Assembly: GCF_000381985.1 (NCBI RefSeq)
Contig: NZ_KB907349.1
Coordinates: 1-64,000 of the forward strand
DNA from: Novispirillum itersonii subsp. itersonii ATCC 12639
GTDB taxonomy: Bacteria; Pseudomonadota; Alphaproteobacteria; Rhodospirillales; Rhodospirillaceae
DNA length: 64,000 nucleotides
Direction of reading: 5' to 3'
Shown: one piece after another, positions 1 to 19,880 of the stretch
Layout: each line of letters opens with the position of its first letter
Position numbering within the stretch: position 1 is the first letter of the stretch
Translations under genes and position numbers: made by a program
The notes under the pieces: generated by a model
Told to the model about the DNA's origin: nothing
What the model saw: only the letters and a program-made list of their open reading frames with translations
The model's database searches: none

Positions 1-316
1 TCACCTGTGTGGTGGCGGCTTCGATATCCTCCCGCGTGTCCTGCAGCAGGGCCGCTGACAGCGCCGTCTGTTCGTCCAGCGCCACGCGGTGAATGGCGTA
101 GATCAGCAGGACGGGATCATCCGCAGACAGCGGGATGCCGGTGTCACTCATCAGCCTGCGACGCAGCTCATCCAGTGACAGACGCGGCACAATCTGACCG
201 GCGGACGGGCCGGAGGGGGTGGCAGGAGTGTTTTCCCTGTCGTCAAACCCGGTTTCCGGTCCGAAATCGTCATAGAAATCCGGGGGTGGCCCCCGATCAT
301 TCTCATAGGAGTGCAT
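1..316 (-). CDS. traM: TraM-like conjugal transfer protein, partial
   Basis: The frame starts with ATG 11 bases after the traL stop, behind a GAGGGG ribosome-binding site, and runs off the left edge after 105 codons. The visible part has an acidic, Pro/Gly-rich N-terminus (MHSYENDRGPPPDF) followed by a helical stretch (LSLDELRRRLM) and no transmembrane segment. In IncP plasmids such as RP4 the order traK-traL-traM runs away from oriT, and this frame takes the traM place. The call therefore rests mainly on position, because I do not recognise the sequence on its own. It is co-transcribed with traL by spacing. Confidence 0.55.
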   Translation of the reverse strand, partial: MHSYENDRGPPPDFYDDFGPETGFDDRENTPATPSGPSAGQIVPRLSLDELRRRLMSDTGIPLSADDPVLLIYAIHRVALDEQTALSAALLQDTREDIEAATTQV

Positions 317-327
317 CGCCCGGCCCC

Positions 328-1068
328 TCAGAAATTGGCGGCGGAGATGCGACCGTTGATCTGGCCCCAGACTTTCCGCAGGCGGCTGCGTTCAACAATC
401 CCGAAGGCTTCGGACGTGCTGGCTTCGGCGAAGGTCAGCCGGGCCGAGGTCATGCGCTTGATGTCTTCGCCGGTGGTCTGGGGCGGCACGGCGGGCAGCT
501 GGATGATGGCAGCGATGCGGGCCTTAAAGCGGGCGAAGAAGGGGCTCTGTTCGAAGGTGAGCGATCCCTTGTCGCTCTCGATCAGGATTTGGCCGAAGTA
601 CTCGTTAAGCCACACGACGATGGCCCCATTGGGGATAGCCTTCGCCAGATTGACCAGACCCTGAGCCGTATCGTGGAGCGCCTGCCCGCCGGTCAGGACG
701 GTGTGCAGGAACACGGTGTGCCCTGCGTCTTCCAGAACCTCGATAATATCAGCCTCAATCATGTACGCGATCAATGGCATGAAGGTCGCAGCGCCGTTGT
801 CTACGACAGCGACGGCATCGTCCGGGAGGACGAGCAGTGCCTGCATAAGGACGTCAAAATTGCGTGGATTGATCTCTCCTTCCTTTTCTCCCAGCCGGAC
901 TACGTGGGTCGAGAACGCCGCATAGCCCCCGAACGTCTGGTTCACCGGGTCGGTGTCGAAGCAGTGGGGGGTGATCCCCCGAGACAGGAAGTGCTGGGCC
1001 AAGAGCGCCGAAATAAAGGATTTACCGACGCCGCCCTTGCCCTGCAGCGTGAAATGGATCTGTGCCAT
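328..1068 (-). CDS. traL: TraL-like ParA/MinD-type ATPase of conjugal transfer
   Basis: A 246-aa P-loop ATPase with a deviant Walker A motif near the N-terminus (GKGGVGKS, about residues 10-17) and a Walker-B-like VAVVDNG near residue 90, as in ParA/MinD/ArsA proteins. TraL of the RP4 Tra1 core is a protein of this size and type, encoded between traK and traM, which is the order here. Its exact role in IncP transfer is poorly defined; it is not an essential mating-pair protein. There is no DNA-binding N-terminus as in plasmid ParA, which argues against a partition function. Confidence 0.8.
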   Translation of the reverse strand: MAQIHFTLQGKGGVGKSFISALLAQHFLSRGITPHCFDTDPVNQTFGGYAAFSTHVVRLGEKEGEINPRNFDVLMQALLVLPDDAVAVVDNGAATFMPLIAYMIEADIIEVLEDAGHTVFLHTVLTGGQALHDTAQGLVNLAKAIPNGAIVVWLNEYFGQILIESDKGSLTFEQSPFFARFKARIAAIIQLPAVPPQTTGEDIKRMTSARLTFAEASTSEAFGIVERSRLRKVWGQINGRISAANF

Positions 1069-1145
1069 TGTGGGGATCCCCGTTGTTTTAATGGATTGAA
1101 AGTGGACAGCCCCCGGCGGTCACAGCGACCGCAAGGGGTCGTGTG

Positions 1146-1499
1146 TCAGTTGGTGCCGTCGTCGTCGTCGCCCAGCATCAGGGGAGAGCCGTTCGGTGTG
1201 CCCGTCAGAGGTGTGGCGGGCTGGATCGTGGATTGATAAGGTGAGGGGAGAGCGCGCGGTGGTGATGCTGCGGTCTGGCGTTTTGTGCTGCCCGTGGTCA
1301 GATTTGACGGGGAGCGTCCTGTTTTCGCTTTGGGCTGAACCCAGCGAAAAAAAGAGGAGCGGCTGAACCCTTCAGCCTGTCCTTCGGCAACCAATGCGTC
1401 ATAAACAGCCGCTGCCGTTTCTCCGCTCTTGATGCGGCGTTCGATTTCTTTGCTCAGTACGGCGATGGCCGTCTTCGCTTTGCCCCATTGCTTCGACAT
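1146..1499 (-). CDS. traK: TraK-like oriT-binding relaxosome accessory protein
   Basis: A small basic protein. A helical, lysine-rich first half (AIAVLSKEIERRIKSG, then a FSRSSFFRWV motif) is followed by a low-complexity Pro/Ser/Thr tail ending in acidic residues (GDDDDGTN). This matches the layout of RP4 TraK, which wraps the oriT region between nic and its own gene to expose the nick site. The gene lies next to a nic-like sequence in the same orientation as in RP4. The start is unsure: the ATG used here gives 117 aa, and an in-frame GTG at 1532 gives 128 aa. Neither has a clear ribosome-binding site. Confidence 0.7.
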   Translation of the reverse strand: MSKQWGKAKTAIAVLSKEIERRIKSGETAAAVYDALVAEGQAEGFSRSSFFRWVQPKAKTGRSPSNLTTGSTKRQTAASPPRALPSPYQSTIQPATPLTGTPNGSPLMLGDDDDGTN

Positions 1500-1532
1500 G
1501 TATCTTGGCCCGCTTTTCGTGCGCCTTGACAC

Positions 1533-1620
1533 ATTGGTCGTTCGTATGGTTTGTTAAGGACAGGGCACGGCAGGATGCCTGTCCAATCAATGCAATGGCT
1601 CACTTGACGGTGGCCCCCGC
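1533..1620 (-). other. Candidate IncP-type oriT with nic-like core
   Basis: The minus strand reads CATCCTGCC at 1569-1577, containing ATCCTG followed by C, the core recognised by IncP (MOBP) relaxases. The predicted nick is between 1571 and 1570. The core lies inside a 7-bp inverted repeat, GGACAGG at 1558-1564 and CCTGTCC at 1578-1584. Orientation relative to traK is the same as in RP4. The traJ gene expected on the other side, and traI beyond it, are absent. This is therefore a relic, or an oriT usable only with a relaxase supplied from elsewhere. Confidence 0.55.
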
Positions 1621-1621
1621 A

Positions 1622-1663
1622 ACCAAAAATAAGCCGTCAACTCATCGAGTTGGCGGCTTATTT
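1622..1663. terminator. Bidirectional intrinsic terminator
   Basis: A near-perfect stem (AAGCCGTCAACTC, loop ATC, GAGTTGGCGGCTT; one mismatch) is flanked by A/T runs on both sides, so it can end transcription from either strand. On the minus strand it follows the stop at 1702. On the plus strand it would stop read-through from the oriT side into rfbA. The alternative is a protein-binding inverted repeat belonging to oriT. Confidence 0.6.
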
Positions 1664-1863: not shown

Positions 1864-2745
1864 ATGAAAGGCATCTTGTTGGCAGGCGGTAGCGGAACTC
1901 GGCTACTCCCTTTGACCCAGACCCTGTCAAAGCAGTTGCTGCCGGTCTATAACAAGCCCCTGATCTACTATCCGCTCAGCACCCTGATGCTGGCAGGTAT
2001 CAGGGAGATCCTGATTATCTCGACGCCGCGTGATCTTCCGATGATCGAGCGGCTGCTGGGGGATGGCAGTCAGATTGGCCTGTCGCTGCACTACGCCGTT
2101 CAGGAAAAGCCAAACGGAATCGCCGAAGCATTCACGATCGGTGCTGACTTCCTGCAGGGTGAACCCGTTTGCCTTGTCCTCGGCGACAACATCTTCCACA
2201 GTCATGAGTTACCCCATCTGCTGGCACGAGCCACAAACCGCAAGGAGGGGGCCTCGGTCCTTGCCTGCCGAGTCAGTAATCCTTCAGCCTATGGTGTGGT
2301 CGAGCTGGACGCCACTGGCAAGCCGATCCGACTGGTGGAAAAGCCTGCCAAGCCCGCGTCGAACTGGGCCGTCACAGGCCTGTATTTCTATGACGGTCAA
2401 GTGCATGACATTGCCCGCTCCTTGCGCCCCTCACAGCGCGGTGAACTGGAAATCACTGACATTAACCAAATCTATCTGGAGCGGGGCCAGCTGAACATTG
2501 AGTTCATGGGGCGGGGTGCCGCTTGGTTCGATGCCGGAACATTCGATAGCCTGCTAGGGGCCAGCCAGTACGTTCACATGCTGGAGGTCCGTCAGGGCCT
2601 GATGATCGGACTGCCCGAGGAAATTGCTTGGCGTATGAACTACATTTCCACCGATGACGTCCGTGCCACGGCTAAGGCCATGCGCAACAATCCGCTCGGC
2701 AATTACCTGCTGGGCCTGCTTGATGAGCCCCGCGCCCATGCTTGA
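1864..2745 (+). CDS. rfbA: Glucose-1-phosphate thymidylyltransferase
   Basis: Makes dTDP-glucose from glucose-1-phosphate and dTTP, the first step to dTDP-6-deoxyhexoses, in the cytoplasm. The 293-aa length is standard. The N-terminal nucleotide-binding motif LAGGSGTRLLPLT (about residues 5-17) and the VLGDNIF motif near residue 110 are intact. A longer frame starts at 1768, but the MKGILLAGG start is the family norm and is used here. It overlaps the next gene by 8 bases, so it heads a tightly packed set with the ketoisomerase and aminotransferase. The partner dehydratase rfbB is far away, at the end of the opposite arm. Confidence 0.95.
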   Translation: MKGILLAGGSGTRLLPLTQTLSKQLLPVYNKPLIYYPLSTLMLAGIREILIISTPRDLPMIERLLGDGSQIGLSLHYAVQEKPNGIAEAFTIGADFLQGEPVCLVLGDNIFHSHELPHLLARATNRKEGASVLACRVSNPSAYGVVELDATGKPIRLVEKPAKPASNWAVTGLYFYDGQVHDIARSLRPSQRGELEITDINQIYLERGQLNIEFMGRGAAWFDAGTFDSLLGASQYVHMLEVRQGLMIGLPEEIAWRMNYISTDDVRATAKAMRNNPLGNYLLGLLDEPRAHA

Positions 2746-3163
2746 CCACCTGGTCCGGATACTCCCCGTTACCACCATCAAGGATGAACGGGGTGCCTTG
2801 GGTATCGTCGAGCTGGCCCGGTCATGCGGCTTTTCCGCCAGCCGCTTTTATTTTCTGTACGACGTCAGAAAGCCGCGTGGCGGGCATGCCCACCGGCGTC
2901 TGCGCCAATGCTTCATCGCTTTTGCCGGGCGCGCTGAAATCACCGTGGATTCCGGTAGCGAACGGCGCACCATTGTTCTTGATTCACCCGAACAGGCGCT
3001 GATTATCAATCCGATGGTGTGGCGTGACCTAGACATGACCCCGGATACCGTCCTCGGCGTTCTGGCTTCGGAACCCTATGACGAAGCGGAATACATCCGC
3101 GATTACGAAACCTTCACCGCGCTGGCCTTGGAAAGAATCGGAAATGATTGTCCCGTTCGTTGA
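2738..3163 (+). CDS. fdtA: dTDP-4-keto-6-deoxyglucose 3,4-ketoisomerase (FdtA/QdtA-type)
   Basis: A 141-aa single-domain cupin of the WxcM/FdtA type. The [11 protein letters not shown] motif (about residues 46-56) contains the paired histidines of the active site, and the NPMVWRDL segment follows near residue 87. Such enzymes convert dTDP-4-keto-6-deoxy-D-glucose to the 3-keto isomer before transamination. Whether the product is the galacto (Fdt) or gluco (Qdt) form cannot be told by eye. It is translationally coupled to rfbA and overlaps the aminotransferase start by 20 bases. Confidence 0.85.
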
Positions 3164-4235
3164 TCTAAAAGCTCAATACCTTGCCATTCGCGACGAAGTC
3201 CGCGCTGCCATCGACACGGTATTCGACCAGTGCGAATTCGTTTTAGGCCAGGAGGTAACGGCATTTGAGGCCGAATTTGCCCGCTATTGCCATGCCAAAC
3301 ATGCTCTGGGCGTGGCCAATGGTCTGGACGCCCTGACACTGGTGGCGCGCGGCTTGGGTATCGGCCCTGGTGACGAAGTAATTGTGCCGGCCATGACCTT
3401 TATTGCCTCGGCCCTGGCATTCAGTCAGGTAGGGGCCACGCCGGTTCTGGTAGATGTGACCTCCGATAGCGCCCTGATTGATCCCGCCCGGATCGAAGCC
3501 GCCATCACCCCGCGGACGAAGGCTATTTGCGCCGTGCACCTTTATGGTCAGTGCGCGGACATGGCAGCCATCACTGCGGTCGCCGCCCGCCATGGGTTGC
3601 CGGTCATTGAAGATGCTGCACAGGCTCACGGTGCTGACGATAATGGTCTCCGTGCAGGCAGTTTGGGTCTTGCCGCCTGCTTCAGTTTTTATCCGGGCAA
3701 GAACTTGGGGGGCTATGGTGACGCCGGCGGTATCTGCACCAACGACGACGCTTTGAACGAACGGCTGTCCTCGCTGCGCAATTATGGTGCCAAGGTCAAG
3801 TACCACCATGAGCAACTGGGGGGGAACAGTCGCCTCGACTCCATTCAGGCAGCCATCCTGCGGGTCAAGCTGCGCTATCTGGATGGCTGGACCGCTGCTC
3901 GTCGCCAGCATGCAGCCCGTTATGATGCCGTACTGGCCGACCTGCCTCAGGTGCGTCGTACAATCTATCGGCCCGGCTCAGTCTATCACCTTTACGTCAT
4001 TCGGGTCGCCGACCGGGATGCCGCTCTGACTAAACTGCATCAGGCGGGGATCGGTGCTGGCATCCACTATCCCTTTGCCCTGCATCAGCAGGAATGTTAC
4101 CGCGATCTAGGCTACCAGCCTGGTGACTTTCCTAATGCCGAGGATTGGGCGGCCCATTCCATCAGTCTGCCGCTGTACGCTGAACTGCCCGAGGATGCTC
4201 CTGAACGGGTTGCTGCCGTGTTGAGGGTCCTTTGA
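3144..4235 (+). CDS. fdtB: dTDP-3-amino-3,6-dideoxyhexose transaminase (DegT/DnrJ/EryC1)
   Basis: A 363-aa PLP-dependent sugar aminotransferase. It shows the family's PFVDLKAQY start, the [14 protein letters not shown] loop, the [11 protein letters not shown] motif and the Schiff-base lysine in [15 protein letters not shown] (near residue 185). With the 3,4-ketoisomerase upstream it should transaminate dTDP-3-keto-6-deoxyhexose to give dTDP-Fuc3N or dTDP-Qui3N. A start 66 bases upstream is open but lacks family-like sequence, so MIVPFVDL was chosen. No FdtC/QdtC N-acetyltransferase follows. The next gene begins in its stop codon (TTGA overlap). Confidence 0.88.
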
Positions 4236-5191
4236 CCCGCGCGCCGCTCCACTGGGAGAAGCTGGGCCGGATTCTTGACCAGAACAGCCTCGACCTGCCT
4301 TGGTTTAAACGGAATGTCATGGTTCCGGTGCCGTATCTGCGCCGCGACGGCGTCCTGCGCATCTTTCTGTCGCTATGCGACCAGGACAATGTCAGCCGGA
4401 TCGGTTATGTGGATGTCAATCCTAACAATCCGCAGGAAATTCTGGGATACAGCCGTACCCCGGTTCTGGATATCGGTGTCCCTGGTGCCTTTGATGATAG
4501 CGGTGTCCTACCCGCCTCTCTGGTGGTGGATGGCGACCGCTTGGTTCTGTTCTATTCGGCCTACCAGTTACTGAAAAAGGCGCCTTATGCGATTTTCACC
4601 GGCATGGCTGTCAGTACTGACGATGGCGACAGTTTCACCCGCCTGTCGGGCGTACCTGTTTTAGAACGGCGCGACGATGAGCTGTTGATGCGGTCATCGG
4701 CGGTTTGCCAGCCCGATCGCAATGGCTTCCGTCTGTGGTATGCCGCCGGTGCCGGGTGGGATTCTTTTGGTGGCAAGGATGTGCCGCGATATGACATTCA
4801 GGTCTTGACCTCGGCCGATCTTCACCGTTGGGATGCAGTACCGCAAACCGCCATCAGTCTTGGGCGTGATGAGATTGGTCTGACCGTCCCATCCGTCTGG
4901 CGCGAGGATGGCCTTTATAAAGTGATCTATTCTGTCCGCCATCGTGAAAAAGGCTACCGCCTTGGCTATGCGGAGTCTATCGATGGTACCCACTTCACCC
5001 GCCAGGATTCCTTGGTTGGTCTGGACGTATCTCTCACCGGCTGGGACAGCGAAATGGTCTGTTTCGCCAACCGCATTACCTGTGGCGGTCGAACCTACCT
5101 GTTTTATTGCGGAAACCATTATGGTCTGGATGGGATGGGCTGTGCCGTCCTGATCCCCTCTGACCGCCGGGATGGTGCTGAAAATGTATAG
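4232..5191 (+). CDS. Five-bladed beta-propeller protein of glycosidase type
   Basis: A 319-aa cytoplasmic protein without a signal peptide, starting at TTG overlapping the previous stop. Repeated blade-like segments ([52 protein letters not shown]) and a C-terminal [15 protein letters not shown] match the GH43/GH32/GH130-like five-bladed propellers often found in O-antigen and exopolysaccharide clusters. Most such relatives have no proven activity. A role in trimming or making the glycan is inferred from position only. It overlaps the fusion gene downstream by 8 bases. Confidence 0.65.
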
Positions 5192-7109
5192 CATCATCCA
5201 TTACACCCCGGAGCGGCGCGACGAGTGGAATGCTTTTGTCGCCAGCAGCAAGAACGGTACGTTTTTGTTCGACCGGAACTACATGGATTATCATGCCGAC
5301 CGCTTCGCCGACGGGTCGTTGATGATCTACGAAAATGCAGGCAGTAAGCTGGTCTCGGTGCTGCCTGCGAACATCAAGGGTAAAGAAATGGTCAGCCATG
5401 GCGGCCTGACCTATGGTGGGCTCGTGGTGGGGCCTGCTATGACCACTCCCATGTTCCTTCAGATGTTCGAGGCGTTGTGCGATCATCTGCGCCAGTTGGG
5501 TCTGGACAGCTTTGTCTATAAGACTGTTCCAACCATTTACCACCGCTTGCCCGCCGAGGAAGACCGGTACGCCCTGTTTCTGTCCAAGGCGGTTCTGTTC
5601 CGCCGCGACACTCTATCGGTACGCCGTATCGGCAGTGGTGTGAAGATTCAGGAGCGCCGCCGCCGTGGCATGAAAAAGGCTACGAATGCCGGTCTGACCG
5701 TCCGCCTGAGCCACGATTACGCTGCCTTCTGGGAAATTCTTGAAGCCAATCTCAAGGAACAGCACGGCACCCGCCCGGTGCATAGTTTGGCTGAGATCAC
5801 CTTGCTCTCTGAGCGCTTCCCGAACAACATCCAGCTAGCTGCCTGTTATGATGGTGACCGTATGCTGGCCGGAACAGTTCTATACCGGACCCCCACCGTA
5901 CTGCATGCCCAATATATCGGCAGCAGCAAGGATGGGCGCGATGCCGGGGCCCTGGATCTGTTGTTTGGTTCAATCGAAACGTTTGCTCAAGATGAGATCT
6001 GGTTCGATTTCGGCATCTCGAATGAAGCCGGATCGGTCCTTAACTCCGGTCTTATCGAATTCAAGGAAGGTTTTGCCGCACGCACCGTGGTTCATGATTA
6101 TTACCGCGTGGACCTCAACGCCTGTCGGCCTGAACGGCCACGCTTCGCCTTGGGCGATGCCATCGAAATCGGCAATATCCCCAATGATCAGCCCATCCGC
6201 CTGACCGTCAACATCATCACCTATAACCAAAAGGACATGATCGGTCCGTTCCTGGACGACGTCATGGCTGAAGTCGGCACTATGGACGGTGTGGAGGTTC
6301 TGGTGGGCGATGATGGGTCGCAGGACGGCACTCAGGATGTGCTGCGTGACTATGTCGAACGCTGGCCCGGACGCCTGCGCGCTATCTTGGGCAACCGTAA
6401 CGTGGGCCCCTGCGCCAACGGCAACCGCAATATGGCCGCTTCCCGGGGGCAGTACGTTGCCTTGCTGGCCGGTGATGACAAGGTGCTGCCGGGAAAATTT
6501 CACCGCCAGATGGAGTTTTTGGACCGACACCCCGATGTCGGGCTGTGTTACCACGACATTTTGGTGGTGTCGTCCACCGGCGAGTTCGCTCCCTGGCGTT
6601 TTAGCGACCGTCATCCGATGTACCGCGGTAACGCTGCCACGGTGATTCGCCATGGCTCGTTCTTTTCGGCGCAAACGCCGATGGTCCGCCAAAGCTTGCT
6701 GCGGGAAGCTAACATGCGTCCTGAACTGGGGTGTTCGGGCGACACTGTGTTTTTCGCCGAAGCCCTGGAGCGGACAGGATTGCGCATCGACTTCGTCCCC
6801 GGCGTCTATATGCATTACATCAAGCATGGTCAGAATTTGACCATGGCCGCGACGGACCAGATTGCCACCGAGAAGGCACGGGAAATCGAAGTATTACGTG
6901 CTCTTTTCCCGCAGTACCCTAACGAGGTATCCTTGCGGGCTGCGGATCACGAATTCATTCTGGCCTTCCGCTGCCTGCGCAATATGAATATCGGTCCAGC
7001 TCTGTCCCATCTGATCAGAAGCATCGCCCTGTCCGGTTGGAAGTGGACAGCGCCTCGCATCATTGCCAGCGAGATTCTTTTTCGGATCAAACGGCTAAGA
7101 CATCAATAA
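5184..7109 (+). CDS. Fusion: FemAB-like GNAT acyltransferase + GT2 glycosyltransferase
   Basis: A 641-aa two-domain protein. Residues 1 to about 325 form a FemAB/BioF2-like acyltransferase (double GNAT fold): KNGTFLFDRNYMDYH near the N-terminus, then RRRRGMKKA and WFDFGISNEAG...LIEFKEGFAA. Residues about 336-580 are a GT-A glycosyltransferase of family 2 (LTVNIITYNQKD, VLVGDDGSQDGT, LLAGDDKVLPGKF; the GDD replaces the usual DXD). No transmembrane helices are evident. An ATG four codons upstream is possible, but the MYSII start fits the domain better. I infer that it may acylate the 3-amino sugar made by the upstream genes and transfer it. Confidence 0.8.
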   Translation: MYSIIHYTPERRDEWNAFVASSKNGTFLFDRNYMDYHADRFADGSLMIYENAGSKLVSVLPANIKGKEMVSHGGLTYGGLVVGPAMTTPMFLQMFEALCDHLRQLGLDSFVYKTVPTIYHRLPAEEDRYALFLSKAVLFRRDTLSVRRIGSGVKIQERRRRGMKKATNAGLTVRLSHDYAAFWEILEANLKEQHGTRPVHSLAEITLLSERFPNNIQLAACYDGDRMLAGTVLYRTPTVLHAQYIGSSKDGRDAGALDLLFGSIETFAQDEIWFDFGISNEAGSVLNSGLIEFKEGFAARTVVHDYYRVDLNACRPERPRFALGDAIEIGNIPNDQPIRLTVNIITYNQKDMIGPFLDDVMAEVGTMDGVEVLVGDDGSQDGTQDVLRDYVERWPGRLRAILGNRNVGPCANGNRNMAASRGQYVALLAGDDKVLPGKFHRQMEFLDRHPDVGLCYHDILVVSSTGEFAPWRFSDRHPMYRGNAATVIRHGSFFSAQTPMVRQSLLREANMRPELGCSGDTVFFAEALERTGLRIDFVPGVYMHYIKHGQNLTMAATDQIATEKAREIEVLRALFPQYPNEVSLRAADHEFILAFRCLRNMNIGPALSHLIRSIALSGWKWTAPRIIASEILFRIKRLRHQ

Positions 7110-7177
7110 GGTCTCTTGGCCGCCATTCTGGTGGTTAATAAGGCCCGGACCATAACGGCGAAGCCCGGAAGAAGATC

Positions 7178-7924
7178 ATGACCGAGAAGCATCACTTGAA
7201 ACATTCCAATCTTAACTTCGAGGAATTTCGCCGTCGTGCCTGCGACCCATCGCTCAGCGCCGAGGAAAAAATCGGGTTTCCCGATGCCTATCGTGCGGGT
7301 AAAGGCGGCGCGATCCTGAACGATATCATCGCCAAGGCATCTAATCTGACTGTGCCAGGCCGTCGTGTTCTGGATATCGGCATCGGTTGTGGGGAACTGG
7401 GGGCCAGCATTGCCCAGTACTGCAAGGCAAACGGCCACAGCTTGACCGCTATCGACTCACCTGAGATGCTGGCGAATTACGACAGCGACGTGCGCAAGAT
7501 CGGCGGGCGCTTCCCTGAGGAATGCGAACAGGCGCTAGGCGACGATGTTTTTGACGTCATTATTATCTATAGCGTCCTGCAATATGTGTTTGCCGATCAG
7601 AACATTTTCGCCTTTGTCGATGTTTGCCTGTCCCGTCTGGCTGATGGTGGCCAGCTGTTGATCGGTGACATTCCCAACACGTCCATGCGCAAGCGTTTCC
7701 TGGCCAGTCCCGCTGGGCTGCGTCATCATCAGGCGTCTTTCGACCCGAACGGCAGTCCGAACGTCACGTTCAATGTTCTGGAGCCTAAGGAAATCGACGA
7801 CGGCGTTCTGCTCGGTGTCCTCGCCCGTTGCCGGGCTGCCGGTTTCCATGCTTTCCTGCTGCCCCAGCCAATGCACCTGCCGATGGCAAATCGGCGGGAG
7901 GACATGGTTGTGATTCGTCCCTAA
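7178..7924 (+). CDS. Class I SAM-dependent methyltransferase
   Basis: A 248-aa protein with the glycine-rich SAM motif VLDIGIGCGELGASI (about residues 63-77), the acidic loop ALTAIDSPEM and a motif-III-like FADQNIFAFVDVCLSRLADGGQLLIGDIPN. It lies 68 bases after the fusion gene and closes the forward arm. The substrate is unknown; a glycan sugar, lipid carrier or amino group are all possible. There is no signal peptide, so it acts in the cytoplasm. Confidence 0.75.
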   Translation: MTEKHHLKHSNLNFEEFRRRACDPSLSAEEKIGFPDAYRAGKGGAILNDIIAKASNLTVPGRRVLDIGIGCGELGASIAQYCKANGHSLTAIDSPEMLANYDSDVRKIGGRFPEECEQALGDDVFDVIIIYSVLQYVFADQNIFAFVDVCLSRLADGGQLLIGDIPNTSMRKRFLASPAGLRHHQASFDPNGSPNVTFNVLEPKEIDDGVLLGVLARCRAAGFHAFLLPQPMHLPMANRREDMVVIRP

Positions 7925-8165
7925 AGCGTTTCACCCGGTTTAAAGCTCTTAGAGTAACATGACGCGATACCGCGTCGTGGGTGGGCCGGATAGTGGTGGT
8001 CTCCAGTAATCAAATAGCTGTTCTTCGCCACTTATTTTAAAGAATAAATCTTTTGGCGCCGTGAACTTTGGGCGAAAGCCCCGGGCTGTACGTCATTTAC
8101 AGTCTGTTAGCTGCCCCCGAACGGGACGGGTTTCGAGATCCGCAAAGAAACAATGACTTTGGCGC
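7925..8165. other. Intergenic spacer without a gene
   Basis: No credible gene is seen here. It contains short IS630-end-like words (AAAGCGTTTCA near 7924 and AAGCTCTTAGAG near 7945) and an AT-richer stretch around 8030-8055. It is probably scar tissue between the polysaccharide arm and the IS3 element. Confidence 0.4.
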
Positions 8166-9153
8166 TGACCTGAGATCGAAGTTTCCTCCGGTTATGGGTG
8201 GAGTCCCGTGTGGTTTTGATGCCCGAAGCGGGCGGTAATGGCAAGTAGGGCTGGGGTATGCCCCAGCCCTGCTTGCGTCGCGGCCTTGACGGCGGCTTCG
8301 GTGGGGGTGAGGCCACCGAGACCGGAGTGGGCCCGCACGTGATTGTAGTCGTCCTTCCAATCGGCCAAGACGCGATGAGCATGGGGCAGTGACGCAAACA
8401 GCGTCTCGTTGAGGTACTCATCGCGGAGCTTGCCGTTGAAGCTCTCGACGAAGCCATTCTGCATGGGCTTGCCCGGCGCGATGTAATGCCAGTCCACCTG
8501 GCGATCCTGGCTCCAGCGCAGCATGACCATGCTGGTGAACTCGGTGCCGTTGTCGCTGACGATCATCAGTGGCTTGCCGCGGCTGGCGAGCAAACCATCC
8601 AGTTCGCGGGCGACGCGGGCGCCTGACAACGAGGTGTCGGCCACCAGCGCCACGCATTCGCGGGTGAAGTCGTCCACCACGGTCAGGATGCGGAACCGCC
8701 GGCCGTCGCGGAAGGCCTCGGCGACAAAGTCCAGCAACCAGCGCTGGTTCAGCCCCTCCGGGATCGTCATCGGCGCCCCTGTGCCCAAAGCACGCTTGCG
8801 CCTGCACCGCCGCCGCACCTGGAGCTTTTGTTCTGCATACAATCGACGCTGCTTCTTCTGGTTCATGGCATGGCCCTCCCGGGCCAGCAGGAGATGAAGG
8901 CGGCGATATAGCTCGCGCAATCGCTCCTGATCTCGGTGTCATCGGGGGCCGGGAACGGTAGCGGATCGATGACCGATCCGCCTCCAGCACGAGACACGCC
9001 CGCCGCTGGCTCACGCCATGATTGGTACAGTTTGGCCTGCTCCTTGAGGATGCCGATGATCTGTTCTTCCGTGAACCGGCTGCGCTTCATAAGTCCGTCT
9101 CCGTAGATAGCGAACTCTACCCAAATTTGGAGGAGTTTTCCGGTCTCAGGTCA
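8166..9153 (-). mobile_element. IS3-family element with internal deletion
   Basis: Bounded by inverted ends that begin TGACCTGAGA on both sides (8166 on the plus strand, 9153 on the minus strand) and stay similar for about 17 bases. At 988 bp it is shorter than the usual 1.2-1.3 kb. The missing part is most of orfA: after MKRSRFTEEQIIGILKEQ the sequence jumps to the start of orfB. No clear target duplication flanks it. It has the ends but no intact transposase, so it could move only with help in trans. Confidence 0.8.
8192..9090 (-). pseudogene. IS3-family transposase OrfAB, deleted and frameshifted
   Basis: The OrfA start (MKRSRFTEEQIIGILKEQ) is fused by deletion to the OrfB N-terminus (SQRRACLVLEADRSSIRYRSR). 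The frame then shifts to PDDTEIRSD and again to [18 protein letters not shown] before a long intact part of 242 codons. That part carries the integrase core with [10 protein letters not shown] and [16 protein letters not shown], so the DDE residues survive in it. At least two frameshifts plus the orfA deletion make it non-functional as a full transposase. Confidence 0.85.
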
Positions 9154-9207
9154 GGGAGGCGTTCCTTGCCGATATTCGCCAGATTCTTGGTCCTTCTCTG
9201 CGGAAGG

Positions 9208-9486
9208 TGGGCATTGAATCTTCCGGCACACAAAACGCAGGAAGTTCAGGCGGCCATAAAAGCAACGGGCGTATAGTGTTTTTATCTGCCGCCATACTCC
9301 CCCGACATGAACCCCATTGAGATGGCTTTATCCAAACTCAAAGCCGCTGCTGCGGCAGGAACCACAGCGCACCATTGATGCGCTGTGGGATAAGGTTGGC
9401 AGACTTATCGAGTGTTTCTCTCCACGGCAGTGTGCAAATTTCTTCAAAGCAGCGGGTTATGTACACTCAATTTGAAAACGCTCTAT
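9208..9486 (+). mobile_element. IS630-family transposase remnant, copy A
   Basis: The C-terminal quarter of an IS630 transposase can be read: LNLPAHKTQEVQAAIKATG, then an in-frame TAG (9274-9276), then LPPYSPDMNPIEMALSKLK. A one-base frameshift near 9345 leads to RTIDALWDKVGRLIECFSP and the stop at 9473. The catalytic Asp before NLPAHK is lost (ALN for VDN). The right end TTGAAAACGCTCTA matches the end of copy B near 16.4 kb. The left part is gone. Confidence 0.8.
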
Positions 9487-9593
9487 GTCTCAGGCTGTTT
9501 ACCCGAGAGACCCATATTCGGCAGATCTTGGGAGTCCCCTCAGTGAGTCAATCTCACCGCTGACTGGTATAATATTACCCTTCCCTCGCAACA

Positions 9594-10946
9594 TTATCTT
9601 TGGCTCAATGCATCCAGCAGATCGGCGGGATTGATCTGATAATCGGCATGAATGTCATGATCCTTGGATGCTCCTAGGACGAATGAGACCTTGACGTCAA
9701 ATGGTCGGGCCATATTATCCCAGTAAAAATACGCGTTCTCCCGCTTTGCTGCTGCCAAGACGACCACGTTAGTATCTGGCTTACAGAACATCAGATTGGC
9801 TAGGGCCGCCCCGCCCGGCGCCACAATCCAGCGGGCGCCTGCCATGGCCGCGACTTGCTCGAGAAAAGACATCTGGCCCGTATCGATGGAGGTGAAACCC
9901 TGCTCCTCCAGAATCTTTTCGATCTCGTCGTTATTGAGCAAGCTGCGCATACTGCTTTGACGGCGGAGGTATAAGCGCTCTCCACAGTGTGGAAAGTCAG
10001 CTGCTGCCGTGTGCATAACGTGACGCATCTGCCTGAGGGCGTGACCATTAAAATGGCCCTCGACAAAATTATTACCCCGTTTGCCGCGAGACCCAGCGGG
10101 AGCATAGCCCACACTAGATGTCAAATGGAGACGCCCAACCTTAACGGAATATCGCGACGACAGAAGATAGAGCCTGCGCTCTGGCCCTGCAGCAACCCGG
10201 GCTGACTCCAGAATGGAAGCCGGTAGGCCATCATTCAGGATCAGAGGGACATCTTTGAACTGTGGCTGGCTACAGAACAGGACGATTTTAGGGAGAATTT
10301 CCGTAAGCCAATGAGCAAAATTCGCAGATGCAGTATCCGTGAAAGATGCAGCCTCAGGAATCTCGAGCGCCCACTTGGTTGGTAGGAACCAACTCGCAAA
10401 TTGATAATCCCAACAAAACCTTGTGTAACACCGATACTCTTCAAAAACGATTTCTTTTTTAATATTAATGCTGTCACTGTATATAGCATTCAGATCTTTA
10501 ACAATAATCCCCGTGCCCGCAAAAACCAAAGCATCTTCGATGACGCTGATATATGCAGGGGGCATCTCGTATTTATAATAGCTTTTAATTCCAAGTTCCT
10601 CAATGGCCCTGGAAGGAAAAATAGAAGGGCGTGGATTGCAAGTTTTATAAGAAGGCGCAACCTCAAGTCGAGCCCCTGTAAGCTGTGCGTATATATTCTG
10701 CTTTATGAGTTTGTATTTTTTCTTAGAAAGGTATCCATTTGTCTTGAAAAAAATGCGCATTGCGATCAGGACAACTGAGCGCAGAAGCCTATGCTTCTTG
10801 ATTCTTTTTCTATAAAAAACCGCGAACTTACTTTGAATAATAGCGTCCATCCACGACGCTCCCGACGCAGGTAAAGTATCCTGGCGAGGAATGACCGTAA
10901 TACGTGGATCCTCAAAGATCGTATCGTGGCTTTCGTGGATATTCAT
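9594..10946 (-). CDS. Glycosyltransferase family 61 (DUF563) protein
   Basis: A 450-aa protein with the family 61 core in its second half: a FTDTASANFAHWLTEILPK motif (about residues 205-223), ERLYLRRQ, a helical FLEQVAAMAGA and the terminal IVAPGGAALANLMFC motif. Such enzymes transfer pentoses or hexosamines in surface glycans. Codon and base use is clearly more AT-rich than in its neighbours, especially in the first 200 codons (KKHRLLRS, KTNGYLSKKKYKLIKQN), which points to a foreign source. It is followed by IS630 copy A. Confidence 0.75.
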   Translation of the reverse strand: MNIHESHDTIFEDPRITVIPRQDTLPASGASWMDAIIQSKFAVFYRKRIKKHRLLRSVVLIAMRIFFKTNGYLSKKKYKLIKQNIYAQLTGARLEVAPSYKTCNPRPSIFPSRAIEELGIKSYYKYEMPPAYISVIEDALVFAGTGIIVKDLNAIYSDSINIKKEIVFEEYRCYTRFCWDYQFASWFLPTKWALEIPEAASFTDTASANFAHWLTEILPKIVLFCSQPQFKDVPLILNDGLPASILESARVAAGPERRLYLLSSRYSVKVGRLHLTSSVGYAPAGSRGKRGNNFVEGHFNGHALRQMRHVMHTAAADFPHCGERLYLRRQSSMRSLLNNDEIEKILEEQGFTSIDTGQMSFLEQVAAMAGARWIVAPGGAALANLMFCKPDTNVVVLAAAKRENAYFYWDNMARPFDVKVSFVLGASKDHDIHADYQINPADLLDALSQR

Positions 10947-11056
10947 CGTAGGCGTCGTGACCGCTATCTCGGGAAAAGCTGACCCAGAGTTGCGGTCAGC
11001 GGCAGGGCTACTCTCCCAGGGGCTCTGTCGCCCCGCTTAGAGCGTTTACAGAAAAA

Positions 11057-11128
11057 GGAAACCGGTAGCGCCCAGACACGCTGCCCTATTCTAAAGAGCT
11101 GCGCCTTTTCTTCGACCAACCGGTTTCC
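11057..11128. repeat. Inverted repeat between ATP-grasp and GT61 genes
   Basis: GGAAACCGGT (11057-11066) and ACCGGTTTCC (11119-11128) form a perfect 10-bp inverted repeat 52 bases apart, in the 200-base gap between the two minus-strand genes. The word TAGAGCGTTTACA just outside it (11039-11051) resembles IS630 ends. It could be a regulatory hairpin or a small IS-derived palindrome. No protein is coded inside. Confidence 0.4.
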
Positions 11129-11146
11129 CTTTACTCAAAAAATGTC

Positions 11147-12226
11147 CTAAGCCTTGGTGTAGCTGTCGGGGATTTCCTGAGACAGTGCCTCTGGAGTGAT
11201 CAACCGGGGCAGACAGTCCATGGCACGCAGCCACAGCAGACCGTCGGGCAGCGGATTGATATTCTTTTCAAGGTTCGGCTTCTTTCCGTACAGACAGAGG
11301 TCTTTCAGGATGACCGGGAAGTTTACCCCGGCTTCCGCGAAGAACTGGATGGTGGTGAAGAACCGTGAGATGTTCATTTCCGTCGGACAGGGGACCCCGT
11401 GACGGTCATAGGTCATGTCTACGCCGAAGATACCATGCGGTCGGGGGCTGATGGCCCGTACAGCATCCAGCGCAACCTGATCGACTGTCGGCGACGAGCA
11501 GGTTTCACCGACCTTGGTAATGCCGGAAATGCCCGAGACGGTGGATGCCCCATAGGCCCAGCCGCGCCGACGCCGGGTCTGGGCAACAATCAGCTCACCT
11601 TCGTGCCAGATGGAGAGCCAGGTGATCGAATCCTCAGTCAGCAGTTCGGCAGCAAGGAAACTGCCCCAGCCCTTCCATCGCTCAATCCATTCGCGGGCGA
11701 TGTCAAAATCATTGGTCGGCAGGGAACCGCGTCCACCATTACCGATAGCCATCGACCGGAGCCAGATCGAGCCTTTATCGTCGCCCAGCTCCTTAAAAGC
11801 CCGACGCAAATCATCCTCGGTATGGATAATGATGTTTTCCGGCACCGGAACACCAGCAGCCTTGAACTTCACCCAGGATTTGTATTTGTGAACGCAGGTG
11901 TCGATGACGTCATAATCCGGCACAATCATGCGCACGCCAAGCGCCTCGATCTCGTCGCGGAACTGCAGGGCGATGGCAATTTCCACATCGTGCTGCAAGA
12001 TAATCATGTCCGGCCGTTCGTCCCGCAGGAAGCGCAACAGGCAGTCCTTGTATTCCGGCTTGCGGGCATGGGGAACCAGATAGCGACGGGGCGCCTTACA
12101 CAGGGCCAGATCGTGCAGATCCGAGCCGAGGCCAATGATTTCCTCGGGGCCCCCGCCCATCAGCAGGCAGTTAATGGTGCCGTTGGATTGGGCGCTTCCC
12201 GCCCCGGTGACCACAATTTTCTTCAT
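11147..12226 (-). CDS. ATP-grasp ligase-like protein
   Basis: A 359-aa protein with an N-terminal Rossmann-like part (KKIVVTGAGSAQSNGTINCL), a central CVHKYKSWVKFKAAGVPVPENII segment typical of the pre-ATP-grasp/ATP-grasp boundary in carbamoyl-phosphate-synthase-like ligases, and GIFGVDMTYDRHGVPCPTEMNISRFF carrying the metal-binding E and N. It should activate a carboxylate with ATP and join it to an amine or other nucleophile; the substrate is unknown. In this cluster it may modify a sugar. The start with an AGGAA ribosome-binding site was preferred over one 8 codons upstream, and lies 17 bases from the ABC gene stop. Confidence 0.72.
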   Translation of the reverse strand: MKKIVVTGAGSAQSNGTINCLLMGGGPEEIIGLGSDLHDLALCKAPRRYLVPHARKPEYKDCLLRFLRDERPDMIILQHDVEIAIALQFRDEIEALGVRMIVPDYDVIDTCVHKYKSWVKFKAAGVPVPENIIIHTEDDLRRAFKELGDDKGSIWLRSMAIGNGGRGSLPTNDFDIAREWIERWKGWGSFLAAELLTEDSITWLSIWHEGELIVAQTRRRRGWAYGASTVSGISGITKVGETCSSPTVDQVALDAVRAISPRPHGIFGVDMTYDRHGVPCPTEMNISRFFTTIQFFAEAGVNFPVILKDLCLYGKKPNLEKNINPLPDGLLWLRAMDCLPRLITPEALSQEIPDSYTKA

Positions 12227-12243
12227 TGGTTGGTTCCTAGAGA

Positions 12244-14109
12244 TCAACATGGGGTATTCGAAACTTCGTCGCCCTTCAGGCCCGACAATTCAACCAGATG
12301 GCGGAACGTGGCGTTCCGCGTGTACAGCTCATCAAACGGCCCGCTGTCCACCAACTTGCCACGATCCATCAAGATCAGCCGGTCGCAGGCCTGAAGCGTA
12401 GAGAGTCTGTGAGCGATGGCGATGATGGTCCGCGAACCCTTCAGTCCCTGCACTGTCTGGGAAATACGATATTCTGTATCAGGGTCAAGGGCTGATGTCG
12501 CTTCGTCAAGAATCAGCAATGTTGGTTCTTTGTAAAGGGCTCTGGCGATGGCCAGACGCTGGCGCTGACCGCCCGAGAAGCGTTTGCCATTTTCCCCGAC
12601 TGAGCTCTTCATGCCTTTTTCAAGACCCTGGACCGTTTCCCACAATTGGGCCTGACGTAACGCAAGCTCCACGCGGTCCGTGTCGATTTTGTCGAGGTCA
12701 ACGCCAAACGCGACATTCTCCATCACGCTGCCGTCAAAGATGAAAGGCTGTTGATCTACATAGCCGATGCTGGCGCGCAAACTACGGATGCGCTCATCGG
12801 TCATCTCCTGACCATCGACCCGATACGCTCCCTGATCGCCCTTGACGAGACCCAACAGAACAGCAACGAGAGTCGTCTTCCCTGAGCCCGAGGGGCCGAT
12901 AACACCGATAAACTCGCCCCGCGTCACCGTCAGATTAATGTCGTCCAAGGCCTTCTCACCCGCTTTGGGATAACTGAAGGACAGGTTTGTCAGCTCAAGC
13001 TGAGACCTGAGCGGGAGTGGTTGCGGCGGCGACTGTTGGCCCTCACCCGCTCCGGACGTGTCCCGTTTACCGTAACCAATCGTATCGGCTTCCGTAATCA
13101 GCAGGTGCAGCCCATAAAGCGCGCTGTTGATGTAGGAAAAAGAGGTCAGACCACGGTTAACCAACGGTATCAGCCGGAACAGCGTCAGTACGATCACCGC
13201 CAGGTCTTTGGTGATGGCCTGCGCTGTCTGGCCCGAGTGCACAATCAGGTTGAATGTCAGGATCGTCGTCAGCAGGACAATCAGTTCCGTGGTAGCACCC
13301 GGCAGGTTTTTCAGAAACAGAACGCGGCCTTCTGCACCAACAAGGTTATTGTTCGTGGTCTTGAAGATCGCTGCAAAGTATTCTTCTTTCAGATTGATCT
13401 TGGTTTCCTTGTAGGCACCAAGCCCTTGCTGCAGCGCAAACATATTCCTGCTGCTCAAGGCGGTGACTTCCTCACCTGCAGCCTGAATCCTTTTTTTGAT
13501 CATGGAATTTTGTGTGTAAAACAAAATAGCAAAAAACACAGCAATGATTAAAGTAATCATTGGATGTCTGTATACTAGAAATGAACAAATAAATATTGCC
13601 GTAAGCGCCTGAGAGCACAATGACAGTACGTGATATGTAAAGTCATTCAGGGTGCTGCTGATCGTGCTGGAAATCAGCGTAATAATTCCTGATGAGTTTC
13701 TCTGTGCGTGATAGTTATAATCCGCATCAAGATACTTTCGGAAGAACTCAAGGCCGATGGAAACCTTCCACCGCGACAACACACGGTGTTCCCAGCGTGA
13801 GAACCACACCTGGAAAAACGCTTTTGCCAGATAAAATCCGGCAACCATGCCACTGATGATCATGACGTAGGTGGGAATAGGTGGGGAGCCAAACAGTCGG
13901 TAGCCAAATCCCAACATCCCACCGCGAACAGCCCCGGCCGGATCGAGGACCAGTTCCAGCAACGGAAAGATCACGAAGATGGTCAGCGTCTCGAAGATGG
14001 CCAAAAGCACACTACCCAGCATGATCAACGTCATCGAAGGGCCGTAGCCCTTGCCGAAATAACGCAGAAACATCCGGAAATTGGCGATGATATTAGCTTT
14101 TTGGTTCAT
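12244..14109 (-). CDS. ABC exporter, PglK/MsbA-like (fused permease-ATPase)
   Basis: A 621-aa half-transporter. An N-terminal membrane domain with about six helices (from TLIMLGSVLLAIFETLTIFVIF to ITKDLAVIVLTLFRLIPLV) precedes a nucleotide-binding domain from about residue 365. The latter has Walker A IGPSGSGKTT, signature FSGGQRQR and Walker B LLILDEATSALD. In glycan clusters such proteins flip lipid-linked sugars (PglK type), which fits the absence of a Wzx here. It overlaps the stop of the small upstream gene (ATGA), so translation is coupled. Confidence 0.85.
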   Translation of the reverse strand: MNQKANIIANFRMFLRYFGKGYGPSMTLIMLGSVLLAIFETLTIFVIFPLLELVLDPAGAVRGGMLGFGYRLFGSPPIPTYVMIISGMVAGFYLAKAFFQVWFSRWEHRVLSRWKVSIGLEFFRKYLDADYNYHAQRNSSGIITLISSTISSTLNDFTYHVLSLCSQALTAIFICSFLVYRHPMITLIIAVFFAILFYTQNSMIKKRIQAAGEEVTALSSRNMFALQQGLGAYKETKINLKEEYFAAIFKTTNNNLVGAEGRVLFLKNLPGATTELIVLLTTILTFNLIVHSGQTAQAITKDLAVIVLTLFRLIPLVNRGLTSFSYINSALYGLHLLITEADTIGYGKRDTSGAGEGQQSPPQPLPLRSQLELTNLSFSYPKAGEKALDDINLTVTRGEFIGVIGPSGSGKTTLVAVLLGLVKGDQGAYRVDGQEMTDERIRSLRASIGYVDQQPFIFDGSVMENVAFGVDLDKIDTDRVELALRQAQLWETVQGLEKGMKSSVGENGKRFSGGQRQRLAIARALYKEPTLLILDEATSALDPDTEYRISQTVQGLKGSRTIIAIAHRLSTLQACDRLILMDRGKLVDSGPFDELYTRNATFRHLVELSGLKGDEVSNTPC

Positions 14110-14420
14110 TTAGGGCAGGTCGTCCCTATGGCAGTCGCACCCGGGGCCGGGAAGAGAGGCTGCAGCGAGACATCCGGGCTGCGGTAGCCGACACTGTTGA
14201 CCTGCACCTTTCCGTCTACCTGCGAGCGTGGCTTGTTAATGTAAAGATAATAAGGCAGATGCTCGATTTCAGGAATAACTGCCCTGTCAACTCTCTGCCC
14301 GGCTATGCCATCAATGGCGATGCTTCCAAGCGCGATATCCAGCGCGTCAGCCTCCGCTCTTGGAACCATGATGGCACAACCGATCAGACAGAATGCCCCG
14401 ATCGCCAAGAATGCTCTCAC
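14106..14420 (-). CDS. Small exported protein, possibly truncated
   Basis: A 104-aa protein with a signal peptide (MRAFLAIGAFCLIGCAIMV, cleavage after about AEA). The mature part has LPYYLYINKPRSQVDG followed by VNSVGYRSPDV. That pair resembles the start of membrane-anchored SGNH-hydrolase-like proteins of glycan clusters, whose catalytic domain would follow but is absent. It overlaps the ABC exporter start by four bases. It is either a short partner protein in its own right or the N-terminal stub of a deleted gene; I cannot decide. Confidence 0.5.
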   Translation of the reverse strand: MRAFLAIGAFCLIGCAIMVPRAEADALDIALGSIAIDGIAGQRVDRAVIPEIEHLPYYLYINKPRSQVDGKVQVNSVGYRSPDVSLQPLFPAPGATAIGTTCPK

Positions 14421-14506
14421 AGTAAGAAAACATTCACCGCAATCTTTACGGCAGAGTTCATTGATTTTTTGCGTGAAAGAACAGTATTAGGAGCAATGAG
14501 CGGCCC

Positions 14507-15523
14507 CTACGGTGTGTCCTGACCCCGCATCTTGCTTGCGTCGAGGTACCACTCCACGGTAGAGGCCAACCCCTCGGGGAAAGTGACCTGCGGTGTGAAA
14601 TCGAGTTCCCGGGTTGCCGTCGCGATATCAATCGCATAACGGTAATCGTGCCCCATCCGGTCAGTCACCATGCTGATCTGTGAGGTGTAGGACTGCTTGT
14701 CGCTGCGCGGGCGAATCCGATCCAAAATCGTGCAGATCTGTGTAACCAGATCAATGTTGCGCCATTCCGACTGCCCGCCAAAGCAATAATGTTCTCCCAC
14801 ACGGCCACGCTGCAGTGCGACCATCACCCCGGCGCAATGATCTTCAACGTGGATCCAGTCACGGATATTCTGCCCGGTACCATAAACAGGCAGCTGTTTG
14901 CCCGCAAGGGCGCAGGTGATCATATGGGGGATCAGCTTCTCAGGATGCTGACGCGGACCGTAATTGTTCGAGCAATGAGTGACGATGGTGGGCAGGCCAT
15001 AGGTGTGATGCCACGCCGACGCAAGATGGTCGGCTCCTGCCTTAGACGCCGAGTAGGGTGAGCGCGGTGCGTAAGGTGTGGTTTCGGTGAAGAAACCTTC
15101 TTCGCCCAGCGAACCGAACACTTCATCCGTGGAAATCTGGACAAAGCGGAAACCCTCACGGTCACCACCGGTTAGCGTCTGGTGATAATCCGACGCAGCA
15201 CGCAGTATGTGCATCGTGCCCAGTACATTCGTCTCGATAAAGGCGTCTGGCCCCGAAATGGACCGATCTACATGGGATTCCGCTGCAAAATTCAGGACTC
15301 CAGACGGCCGGTGCCGCTCCAGCAGAGAACGCACAAGGCTATAATCAGCGATGTCGCCCACCACAAGCTCAAACCTATCGGCAGGCAGCCCAGCCACATT
15401 ATCCGGAGAGCCCGCATAGGTCAGCTTATCCAGGCCAATTACCGCATAGCCTTGCTCCAAAGCGGTGCGCACGAATTGGCTGCCGACAAAGCCCGCAGCT
15501 CCCGTAACCAGCAATACCTCCAT
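14507..15523 (-). CDS. rfbB: dTDP-glucose 4,6-dehydratase
   Basis: A 338-aa NAD-dependent SDR enzyme converting dTDP-glucose to dTDP-4-keto-6-deoxyglucose. It has the nucleotide-binding TGAAGFVGSQFV at the N-terminus, VDRSISGP, the STDEVFGSLGE active-site loop, YSASKAGADHL (catalytic Tyr/Lys) and NNYGPRQHPEKLIPHMI. The start with an AAAGGG ribosome-binding site is used; the frame is open 22 codons further upstream. It supplies the substrate for the ketoisomerase and aminotransferase of the forward arm, so the two arms belong to one pathway. rmlC and rmlD are absent, so rhamnose is not made here. Confidence 0.95.
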   Translation of the reverse strand: MEVLLVTGAAGFVGSQFVRTALEQGYAVIGLDKLTYAGSPDNVAGLPADRFELVVGDIADYSLVRSLLERHRPSGVLNFAAESHVDRSISGPDAFIETNVLGTMHILRAASDYHQTLTGGDREGFRFVQISTDEVFGSLGEEGFFTETTPYAPRSPYSASKAGADHLASAWHHTYGLPTIVTHCSNNYGPRQHPEKLIPHMITCALAGKQLPVYGTGQNIRDWIHVEDHCAGVMVALQRGRVGEHYCFGGQSEWRNIDLVTQICTILDRIRPRSDKQSYTSQISMVTDRMGHDYRYAIDIATATRELDFTPQVTFPEGLASTVEWYLDASKMRGQDTP

Positions 15524-15599
15524 AAGTCGCCCTTTCTTGATCGCTGCCTCGCACGCAGGCGCGACGTTAAAGCTTTGCTCTGATACCATGTTAGTTATA

Positions 15600-15851
15600 A
15601 GCTGAGCAAGGAATAACTTTTCGCAGTAAAATCAATCATTAATTATTAAAATATTAAAATTTAAATTTATTTGAAAAATCTTTTAAATAAAAAAATACAT
15701 TTATCATTTATTTCAAAGCAATTAACTTTATATTATTTAAATTTATAATTAAACATGTCGTATTTAAATTTTTTAATTCATATTTCTTTTTATTAAGGGC
15801 GGATTTTATAAAGTAACAATTCTATCTGACCGACAAGCTCTTGCGCGTCTG
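15600..15851. other. Very AT-rich spacer upstream of rfbB
   Basis: About 250 bases almost without G or C (runs such as ATTATTAAAATATTAAAATT), in strong contrast to the surrounding GC-rich DNA. No reading frame of note is present. It lies upstream of rfbB and ends at IS630 copy B. Such islets are typical of horizontally gained surface-glycan genes and can act as promoters or as targets of silencing proteins; here that is inference. Confidence 0.6.
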
Positions 15852-16419: not shown

Positions 16420-16499
16420 TCCGCGTATTCGAGTCCTACGACCAGATCATTGCCCTCTGCTGCCAGCTCATCGACCATCCATGAAAGATCATGTCCATT

Positions 16500-16701: not shown

Positions 16702-16728
16702 AACACAACGGGGCTTGTCACCGCTCTT

Positions 16729-16754: not shown

Positions 16755-16761
16755 TTGATTA

Positions 16762-19830: not shown

Positions 19831-19880
19831 TTCTGTTCGACGTGGTCATGACTGGGCACTGTTTAGGGAAGGTCTTCTGA

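Follow-up and report, generated by a model that had tools for sequence, protein, structure and literature searches.

The right end of a probable integrated conjugative element at a tRNA-fMet gene in Novispirillum itersonii

Introduction

What ended a run of IncP-like transfer genes beside a polysaccharide gene cluster in Novispirillum itersonii subsp. itersonii ATCC 12639? The window, meaning the whole stretch of DNA analyzed here, comprises bases 1 to 64000 of contig C13 (114,813 bp) in a genome of 4.29 Mb and 34 contigs (G000). Base 1 of the window is also the start of the contig, so that the sequence further left is unreadable there. A sequence-only reading of this border saw either the relic of an IncP-type oriT or the scar of an integrated element. 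We examined the border against the genus mate N. itersonii DSM 11590 (G019) and against further relatives; contig numbers are each genome's own, and C22 denotes a different contig in each of the two N. itersonii genomes. Very probably (about 0.9), bases 1 to 1612 form the right (traK) end of an integrated conjugative element (ICE) that inserted at the 3' end of tRNA-fMet, the last gene of an rRNA operon (Table 1). This reading rests on the 13-bp copy of the tRNA at the junction, the adjacent host hairpin, the empty orthologous site in the genus mate, and relatives that have both ends of such an element.

Table 1. Features of the window around the junction and of the adjoining chromosome
Feature	Position	Strand	Basis or reading
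Probable ICE right end	1..1612		C13 starts at base 1; near-identical copy on C6; same segment of relatives lies between att and virB
Frame in TraM position, truncated by the contig start	2..316	-	Open frame; placed as traM is in pBS228 and pAKD4
traL-like ATPase gene	328..1068	-	NCBIfam TraL NF010461; plasmid TraL proteins
traK-like gene	1146..1499 (ATG at 1499)	-	TraK-sized frame upstream of traL
Outward TTGACA-N15-TG box	1526..1548	+	-35-like, no convincing -10; putative promoter or protein-binding site
7-bp inverted repeat with ATCCTG/C (nic of the sequence-only reading)	1558..1584	-	Probably chance
attR core GCCCCCGCAACCA, copy of the tRNA-fMet 3' end	1613..1625		Matched at the intact tRNA-fMet of relatives
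Host hairpin resembling a terminator (tRNA-fMet/rRNA operon), outside the ICE	1629..1661	+	Common to C6 (56 columns, 94.6%)
Polysaccharide-type genes, chromosome outside the ICE	1864..19880		Read from translations; 1864-2745 and 8192-8920 family-scanned
Chromosomal block syntenic with the DSM 11590 empty site	19881..35018		DSM 11590 L203 6478-19999

Results

Transfer genes at the contig end

TraL is clear. It matches the NCBIfam model NF010461 with an E value of 3e-67 and 226.5 bits, under the model cut-off of 360; its best plasmid protein match, from Thalassospira marina, is 51% identical, and the copies in N. itersonii DSM 11590 are 81% and 67% identical. TraK and TraM, which the sequence-only reading had named together with TraL, are recognizable mainly by size and place. 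The traK-like frame matches DUF5338 with an E value of 0.083, below the cut-off; its Thalassospira counterpart reaches 9e-5, below the cut-off too, and an NCBIfam profile search of the frame in the TraM position gave no match.

A second copy of window 1-1254 lies at C6:1-1248 with 95% identity, likewise at a contig start; the two ends are identical over 1-588, with the first mismatch at 589. The TraL proteins of the C13 and C6 copies are 95% identical, whereas their TraK proteins are 47% identical, and the relaxase modules on contigs C22 and C23 of the same genome also differ from each other, suggesting that traK and the relaxase may vary together as a specificity module. Other genes can stand between traK and traL: a topoisomerase-like frame, recognized by eye, separates them in DSM 11590 (L031 8011-9996), and a single-stranded-DNA-binding protein gene does so in the relative G038 (L206 1947-2345).

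The border is a probable tRNA-fMet junction

The regions upstream of traK in relatives have one word in common, GGTTGCGGGG, next to a hairpin of variable sequence. Within the ATCC 12639 genome, the pattern GGTTGCGGGGNC has 15 matches, compared with 4 for the reversed control. Judged by context, 11 of the 15 are neither tRNA nor att; of the other four, three are att-like copies (C13:1613, C6:1634 and C18:13536) and one, at C18:46234, forms the 3' end of an intact tRNA-fMet gene. Both attR sites of DSM 11590 (L030 and L031) have hairpins beside them that recur behind native tRNA-fMet genes at other places in its genome, indicating that the hairpin at 1629-1661 belongs to the host operon. A terminator scan listed the C6 counterpart of this hairpin and not the window hairpin itself, and Rfam gave no match on window 1-3000 at E values up to 1. 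A small RNA running from about 1526 to the hairpin was considered and dropped, because GGTTGCGGGG corresponds to the 3' end of tRNA-fMet and the hairpin belongs to the host operon.

Right ends of this type were surveyed from 57 TraL loci, which are part of a larger table and include two rows for the same T. marina locus. The exact core accompanies 27 of them; L031 was added by hand because of the topoisomerase-like frame between its traK and traL, and the resulting 28 reduce to 25 distinct right ends. No exact att core lies within 1500 bp of 29 of the 57 loci (2 of these 29 offered less than 1000 bp), suggesting that TraKLM occurs in other settings too. Over a fixed 150-bp interval, an outward TTGACA is present in 24 of the 25 right ends and TTGAC[AG]-N15-TG in 21, with 0.1 expected from shuffles, many of the 25 being close Thalassospira relatives and so not independent. 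The promoter scan of window 1000-2000 did not call the box at 1526. It may be a promoter that reaches a rep gene in the circular form only, or a site for TraK or the recombinase.

Host side: an empty site and a variable glycan locus

The orthologous locus on contig C22 of DSM 11590 holds no element; it reads, in order, the end of 23S, 5S, tRNA-fMet, a hairpin and host DNA. Further along, window 19881-35018 and DSM 11590 contig C22 6478-19999 share nine predicted frames with 70-98% amino-acid identity, the C13 frame 23426-24553 having no counterpart in the DSM 11590 block. The interval from the tRNA to this syntenic block measures 5.8 kb in DSM 11590 versus 18.3 kb in C13, and in DSM 11590 it is occupied by other glycan frames, which are glycosyltransferase-, flippase- and methyltransferase-like as read from translations. 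Different glycan-type frames between tRNA and syntenic block in both genomes indicate that the glycan cluster is a variable polysaccharide locus of the chromosome beside the rRNA operon, and the ICE appears to have landed between both. An IS3-type transposase gene with an integrase core domain lies inside the cluster at 8192-8920. Beside the C6 copy, iron-transport genes are common to DSM 11590 (78-91% over three frames), whose ICE has the same neighborhood.

The suggestion of a scar left by an integrated conjugative element, one with IncP-like TraK and TraL, thus agrees with the att copy, the empty site and the relatives with both ends. Its companion idea, that the element brought the polysaccharide cluster, does not hold: the cluster lies outside the att site, in a chromosome whose flank DSM 11590 shares. 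The relaxase side was not replaced by glycan genes; the appearance of a replacement arises from reading one side of an insertion at a contig end.

Relatives carry both ends of the element

On the chromosome of G286, the core beside traK at 2832574 and a direct-orientation intact tRNA-fMet gene at 2869883, after 23S-5S, are 37.3 kb apart. The G268 chromosome has an intact tRNA-fMet gene at 260106 and the far repeat at 335152, a distance of 75.0 kb of which only the two ends were read, and the same flanking repeats enclose 41.5 kb on contig C71 of G038 (1416-42946). The counterpart of window 1-1612 is placed between att and virB genes in G286 and G038. Direct repeats and an empty site in a relative are therefore both on record for this kind of element; for the window copy, the right junction is the one that was read.

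The G286 element encodes a TraI above the model cut-off, a VirB4 above the Pfam cut-off, and a serine recombinase whose best NCBIfam matches, CcrB and CcrC, are far below cut-off. Large serine recombinases are also present in G038 and T. marina. VirB4 occupies its expected place in DSM 11590 (L030) and in G286, and these VirB4 proteins match TIGR00929 with E values of 6e-75 and 3e-68, below the model cut-off. In T. marina, the annotated order on pCSC3H3 is TraL, VirB2, VirB4, VirB8, VirB9, VirB10, a VirB11-type ATPase, VirD4, ArdC, an RHH protein and TraI, all on one strand except one hypothetical gene; in the relatives read, traJ-traI stand at the far end of such a one-directional tra cluster.

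The T. marina element lies on a 908-kb plasmid (pCSC3H3, NZ_CP024200.1), where it runs from 895598 through the record start to about 40068. Its cargo includes kdp genes and an MZA-associated protein, and the surroundings of its left end gave no exact match to the att core. PLSDB types pCSC3H3 as "non-mobilizable," a label showing that elements of this kind can be overlooked.

Probable further parts of the element in the ATCC 12639 genome

Two further contigs of this genome carry genes of the kind expected towards the other end. On C22, CagX (VirB9), TrbI (VirB10), T2SSE (VirB11) and VirD4 proteins exceed the Pfam cut-offs, and a TraI/MobP relaxase above its model cut-off is accompanied by a TraJ-like protein below and an ArdC-Toprim protein. 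On C23, a TraI/MobP relaxase again exceeds its cut-off and a TraJ-like protein falls below. Each contig has a large serine recombinase, both start inside secretion genes and are identical over 1-6975, and both end in a RepC-like gene, which is found on C18 too. VirB4 was not found in this assembly by the Pfam model or by a T. marina protein search, of which the Pfam model is weak for this subfamily (the VirB4 of G038 is just below cut-off) and the protein search less so. The simplest reason would be that a stretch identical in two ICEs was collapsed and lost.

Among their genes are a traJ-like gene, traI and several mating-pair genes, of the kind that the sequence-only reading proposed to look for in the rest of the replicon. 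They also hold a traJ-traI set in another arrangement; that reading had named such a set, immediately left of the window, as evidence against itself, and the set is seen on other contigs. The left half of the window ICE is not physically linked to the window, and C22 and C23 are assignable to neither C13 nor C6, since contig breaks hide the links between the C13/C6 ends and C22/C23. The identity of C13 and C6 over their first 588 bases, and of C22 and C23 over 6975, could stem from a recent exchange, or from an assembly that ran the contig ends into a repeat it had collapsed.

The missing links to the left half also suit a degraded remnant, with one end left and the element immobile, and remnants may exist in this genome: the RepC-like ICE end on C18 is without recognizable tra genes up to the contig end in the translations read. 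For the window copy we consider this unlikely, because the traK and traL frames are intact, the two relaxase modules are without internal stops, and the identical contig ends fit two near-identical elements collapsed in assembly.

C18 also shows other occupants of the region. A 32.7-kb stretch at 13536-46276 (L053, L119 and L120), with frames that look phage-like by eye, separates an att copy from the intact tRNA-fMet gene. It has its own large serine recombinase beside the tRNA, which matches the C22, C23 and G038 recombinases at 39-41% over 283-342 aa; the tRNA-fMet site appears to be used by prophage and ICE alike. At C18 6156-12535, genes for a JetA (Wadjet) protein, an SMC-like ATPase and a KfrA-type protein adjoin the RepC-like ICE end.

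The candidate oriT

The nic-like core described in the sequence-only reading is present: ATCCTG followed by C is found on the minus strand at 1576-1570, within the repeat GGACAGG (1558-1564)/CCTGTCC (1578-1584), and its direction relative to traK is the same as in pBS228 and pAKD4. Chance alone gives ATCCTG, on one strand or the other, in 3.85% of 2,000 shuffled versions of the 114-bp interval, and ATCCTGC in 1.3%. The core occurs in 1 of the 25 distinct right ends, the window itself. Alignment with MOBP oriTs had been set as the test of this claim, and 1497-1660 shows no similarity to the two IncP oriTs used: against the traJ-traK regions of pBS228 and pAKD4, 156/200 and 194/200 shuffles reach the score. 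As a control, those two regions aligned with each other score 107, compared with a shuffle mean of 12.5, and 0/200 shuffles reach 107. This alignment speaks against an IncP oriT at 1497-1660, and the presence of the core in a single right end together with the failed alignment suggests that it is probably a chance occurrence. A second candidate nic, in a TCCTGA motif of the left ends, was rejected as well; it was present in all five of the left ends first read and not at that place in L174, L176, L179, L180 and L187.

It is accordingly very improbable that the border is an orphan or relic IncP-type oriT, mobilizable in trans, whose traJ-traI side was replaced by the glycan cluster. TraK and TraL and an inverted repeat in IncP-like direction would suit such a relic, but the att core, the host hairpin and the empty site already explain the border, traJ-traI belong at the far cluster end in relatives, and MOBP relaxases are present in this genome on C22 and C23.

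Left ends: a rep gene and a predicted antisense RNA

An att core accompanies 11 of 30 RepC-like loci. L178 and L188, with the core at the locus edge, and L184, a short match without tRNA context, were left out; the eight others, together with G286 and G265, make 10 left ends. An intact tRNA-fMet gene is present in 5 of the 10 (L164/L172, L181, L187, G286 and G265), the stretches of L179 and L180 begin almost at the core, and L199 on C18 joins the prophage. The left ends L174 (of G038), L176 and L209 join apparent 3' halves of other tRNAs ending in CCCCGCAACCA; ARAGORN found no tRNA at these three ends, of which L209 starts at a contig end.

In none of the 10 distinct left ends does the sense strand carry a TTGAC box in the stretch read after the core, which reached up to 300 bases. 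On the opposite strand, all 10 have a TTGACA box with a hairpin and T-run behind it, the hairpins having been identified by eye and from the fold. The gene behind this antisense RNA, reading away from the core, is RepC-like in 8 of the 10 and encodes an HTH_36 protein in G286 and G265. The predicted RNA forms two helices, and 12 of its 22 pairs have a change on both sides in at least one of the 10 sequences, covariation that supports the prediction. In L164, the one left end scanned, both a promoter (TTGACA-17-CAGAAT) and a terminator with a 12-pair stem were found. Rfam identified a tRNA alone at gathering score in five left-end loci, with two matches below; one sub-threshold match is to RNAI (25.6 versus 47 bits, E value of 0.34) and covers the antisense-RNA region on the L157 minus strand. 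A countertranscript RNA (ctRNA) restrains rep in repABC plasmids, and we read the antisense RNA as a predicted countertranscript that would do the same here.

A further step, which we regard as doubtful, would join the two ends: rep would lack a promoter at its own end and be driven by the outward box of the traK end, across attP, only in the circle, and upon integration the host rRNA-operon terminator beside attR would stop the transcript and the antisense RNA would silence rep. If true, integration itself would be the off-switch for replication.

It is highly improbable that the window is part of a conjugative plasmid or chromid, with a tra region that finishes here, the RepC-like gene and the plasmid-borne T. 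marina relative being outweighed by the tRNA-fMet junctions at left ends, the empty site in DSM 11590, the chromosomal copies in G286 and G268, and the RNase P RNA gene that C13 also carries.

Discussion

The probable ICE end in the window belongs to an outlined family of ICEs in Novispirillum, Thalassospira and relatives, which have the same gene order and use tRNA-fMet genes at rRNA operon ends. The family probably integrates via a large serine recombinase, pairs an IncP-like TraKLM with a VirB-type channel, and has a RepC-like gene in most left ends read. Two cautions follow for the reading of draft genomes: a contig starting at an ICE end can mimic gene replacement, and a hexamer that looks like a nic next to traK lends weak support to an oriT.

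Excision, transfer and replication of the window ICE are predicted steps. The large serine recombinase would recombine the two copies of the tRNA 3' end and so release the ICE in circular form, a MOBP TraI with TraJ would nick a putative oriT, and TraG/VirD4 with a VirB-type channel would export the strand. In the recipient, the circle would re-insert at the tRNA-fMet 3' end, rebuilding an intact tRNA at the left end and leaving the copy at 1613-1625 at the right end. In such a layout, traK-L-M would be the first genes of a one-directional transfer cluster and traJ-traI the last. Maintenance of the circle probably falls to the RepC-like gene of the left end, which the putative antisense RNA would restrain.

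Among the matches listed in a literature search, none of the titles and abstract starts describes this ICE family, ICE databases and subscription literature being outside its scope. In the available text of PMC11104534, the word "tRNA" is absent from the main text; the available part of PMC4741004 suggests ICEs in Sphingopyxis and has the initiator tRNA in its methods only.

Three known systems resemble parts of the element. With repABC replicons of Alphaproteobacteria, it has two features in common: a RepC N-terminal domain that exceeds the Pfam cut-off, and an antisense RNA predicted to lie upstream of the rep gene. However, the ICE gene scores 37.8 bits against NCBIfam RepABC_RepC, far below the cut-off of 150, no repA-repB was recognized by eye beside it, its antisense RNA is without an Rfam match at gathering score, and in G286 and G265 the left-end gene encodes the HTH_36 protein, not RepC.

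The likeness to IncP plasmids (RP4/RK2 group, including pBS228 and pAKD4) lies in the transfer genes: the same traK-traL-traM order, a homologous TraL (45-49% to IncP-type TraL proteins among the matches listed), the same TraI/MobP relaxase family with a TraJ-like protein, and a C22 coupling protein nearest the TraG model (525.8 bits, below the cut-off of 586). The arrangement differs. In pBS228 and pAKD4, traJ-traI diverge from traK across oriT, whereas in the ICE relatives they end a one-way cluster; at the right end in the window, divergent traJ-traI across this region are not present, and an att site and host DNA stand there instead. The ICE further differs in its chromosomal integration at a tRNA and in showing no IncP oriT sequence.

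ICEs with tyrosine integrases provide examples of integration at tRNA 3' ends. The element resembles them in its junctions, where the far one carries a duplicate of the tRNA 3' end and the near one an intact tRNA. It differs from these tyrosine-integrase examples in its enzyme, the integrase-type gene found here being that of a large serine recombinase.
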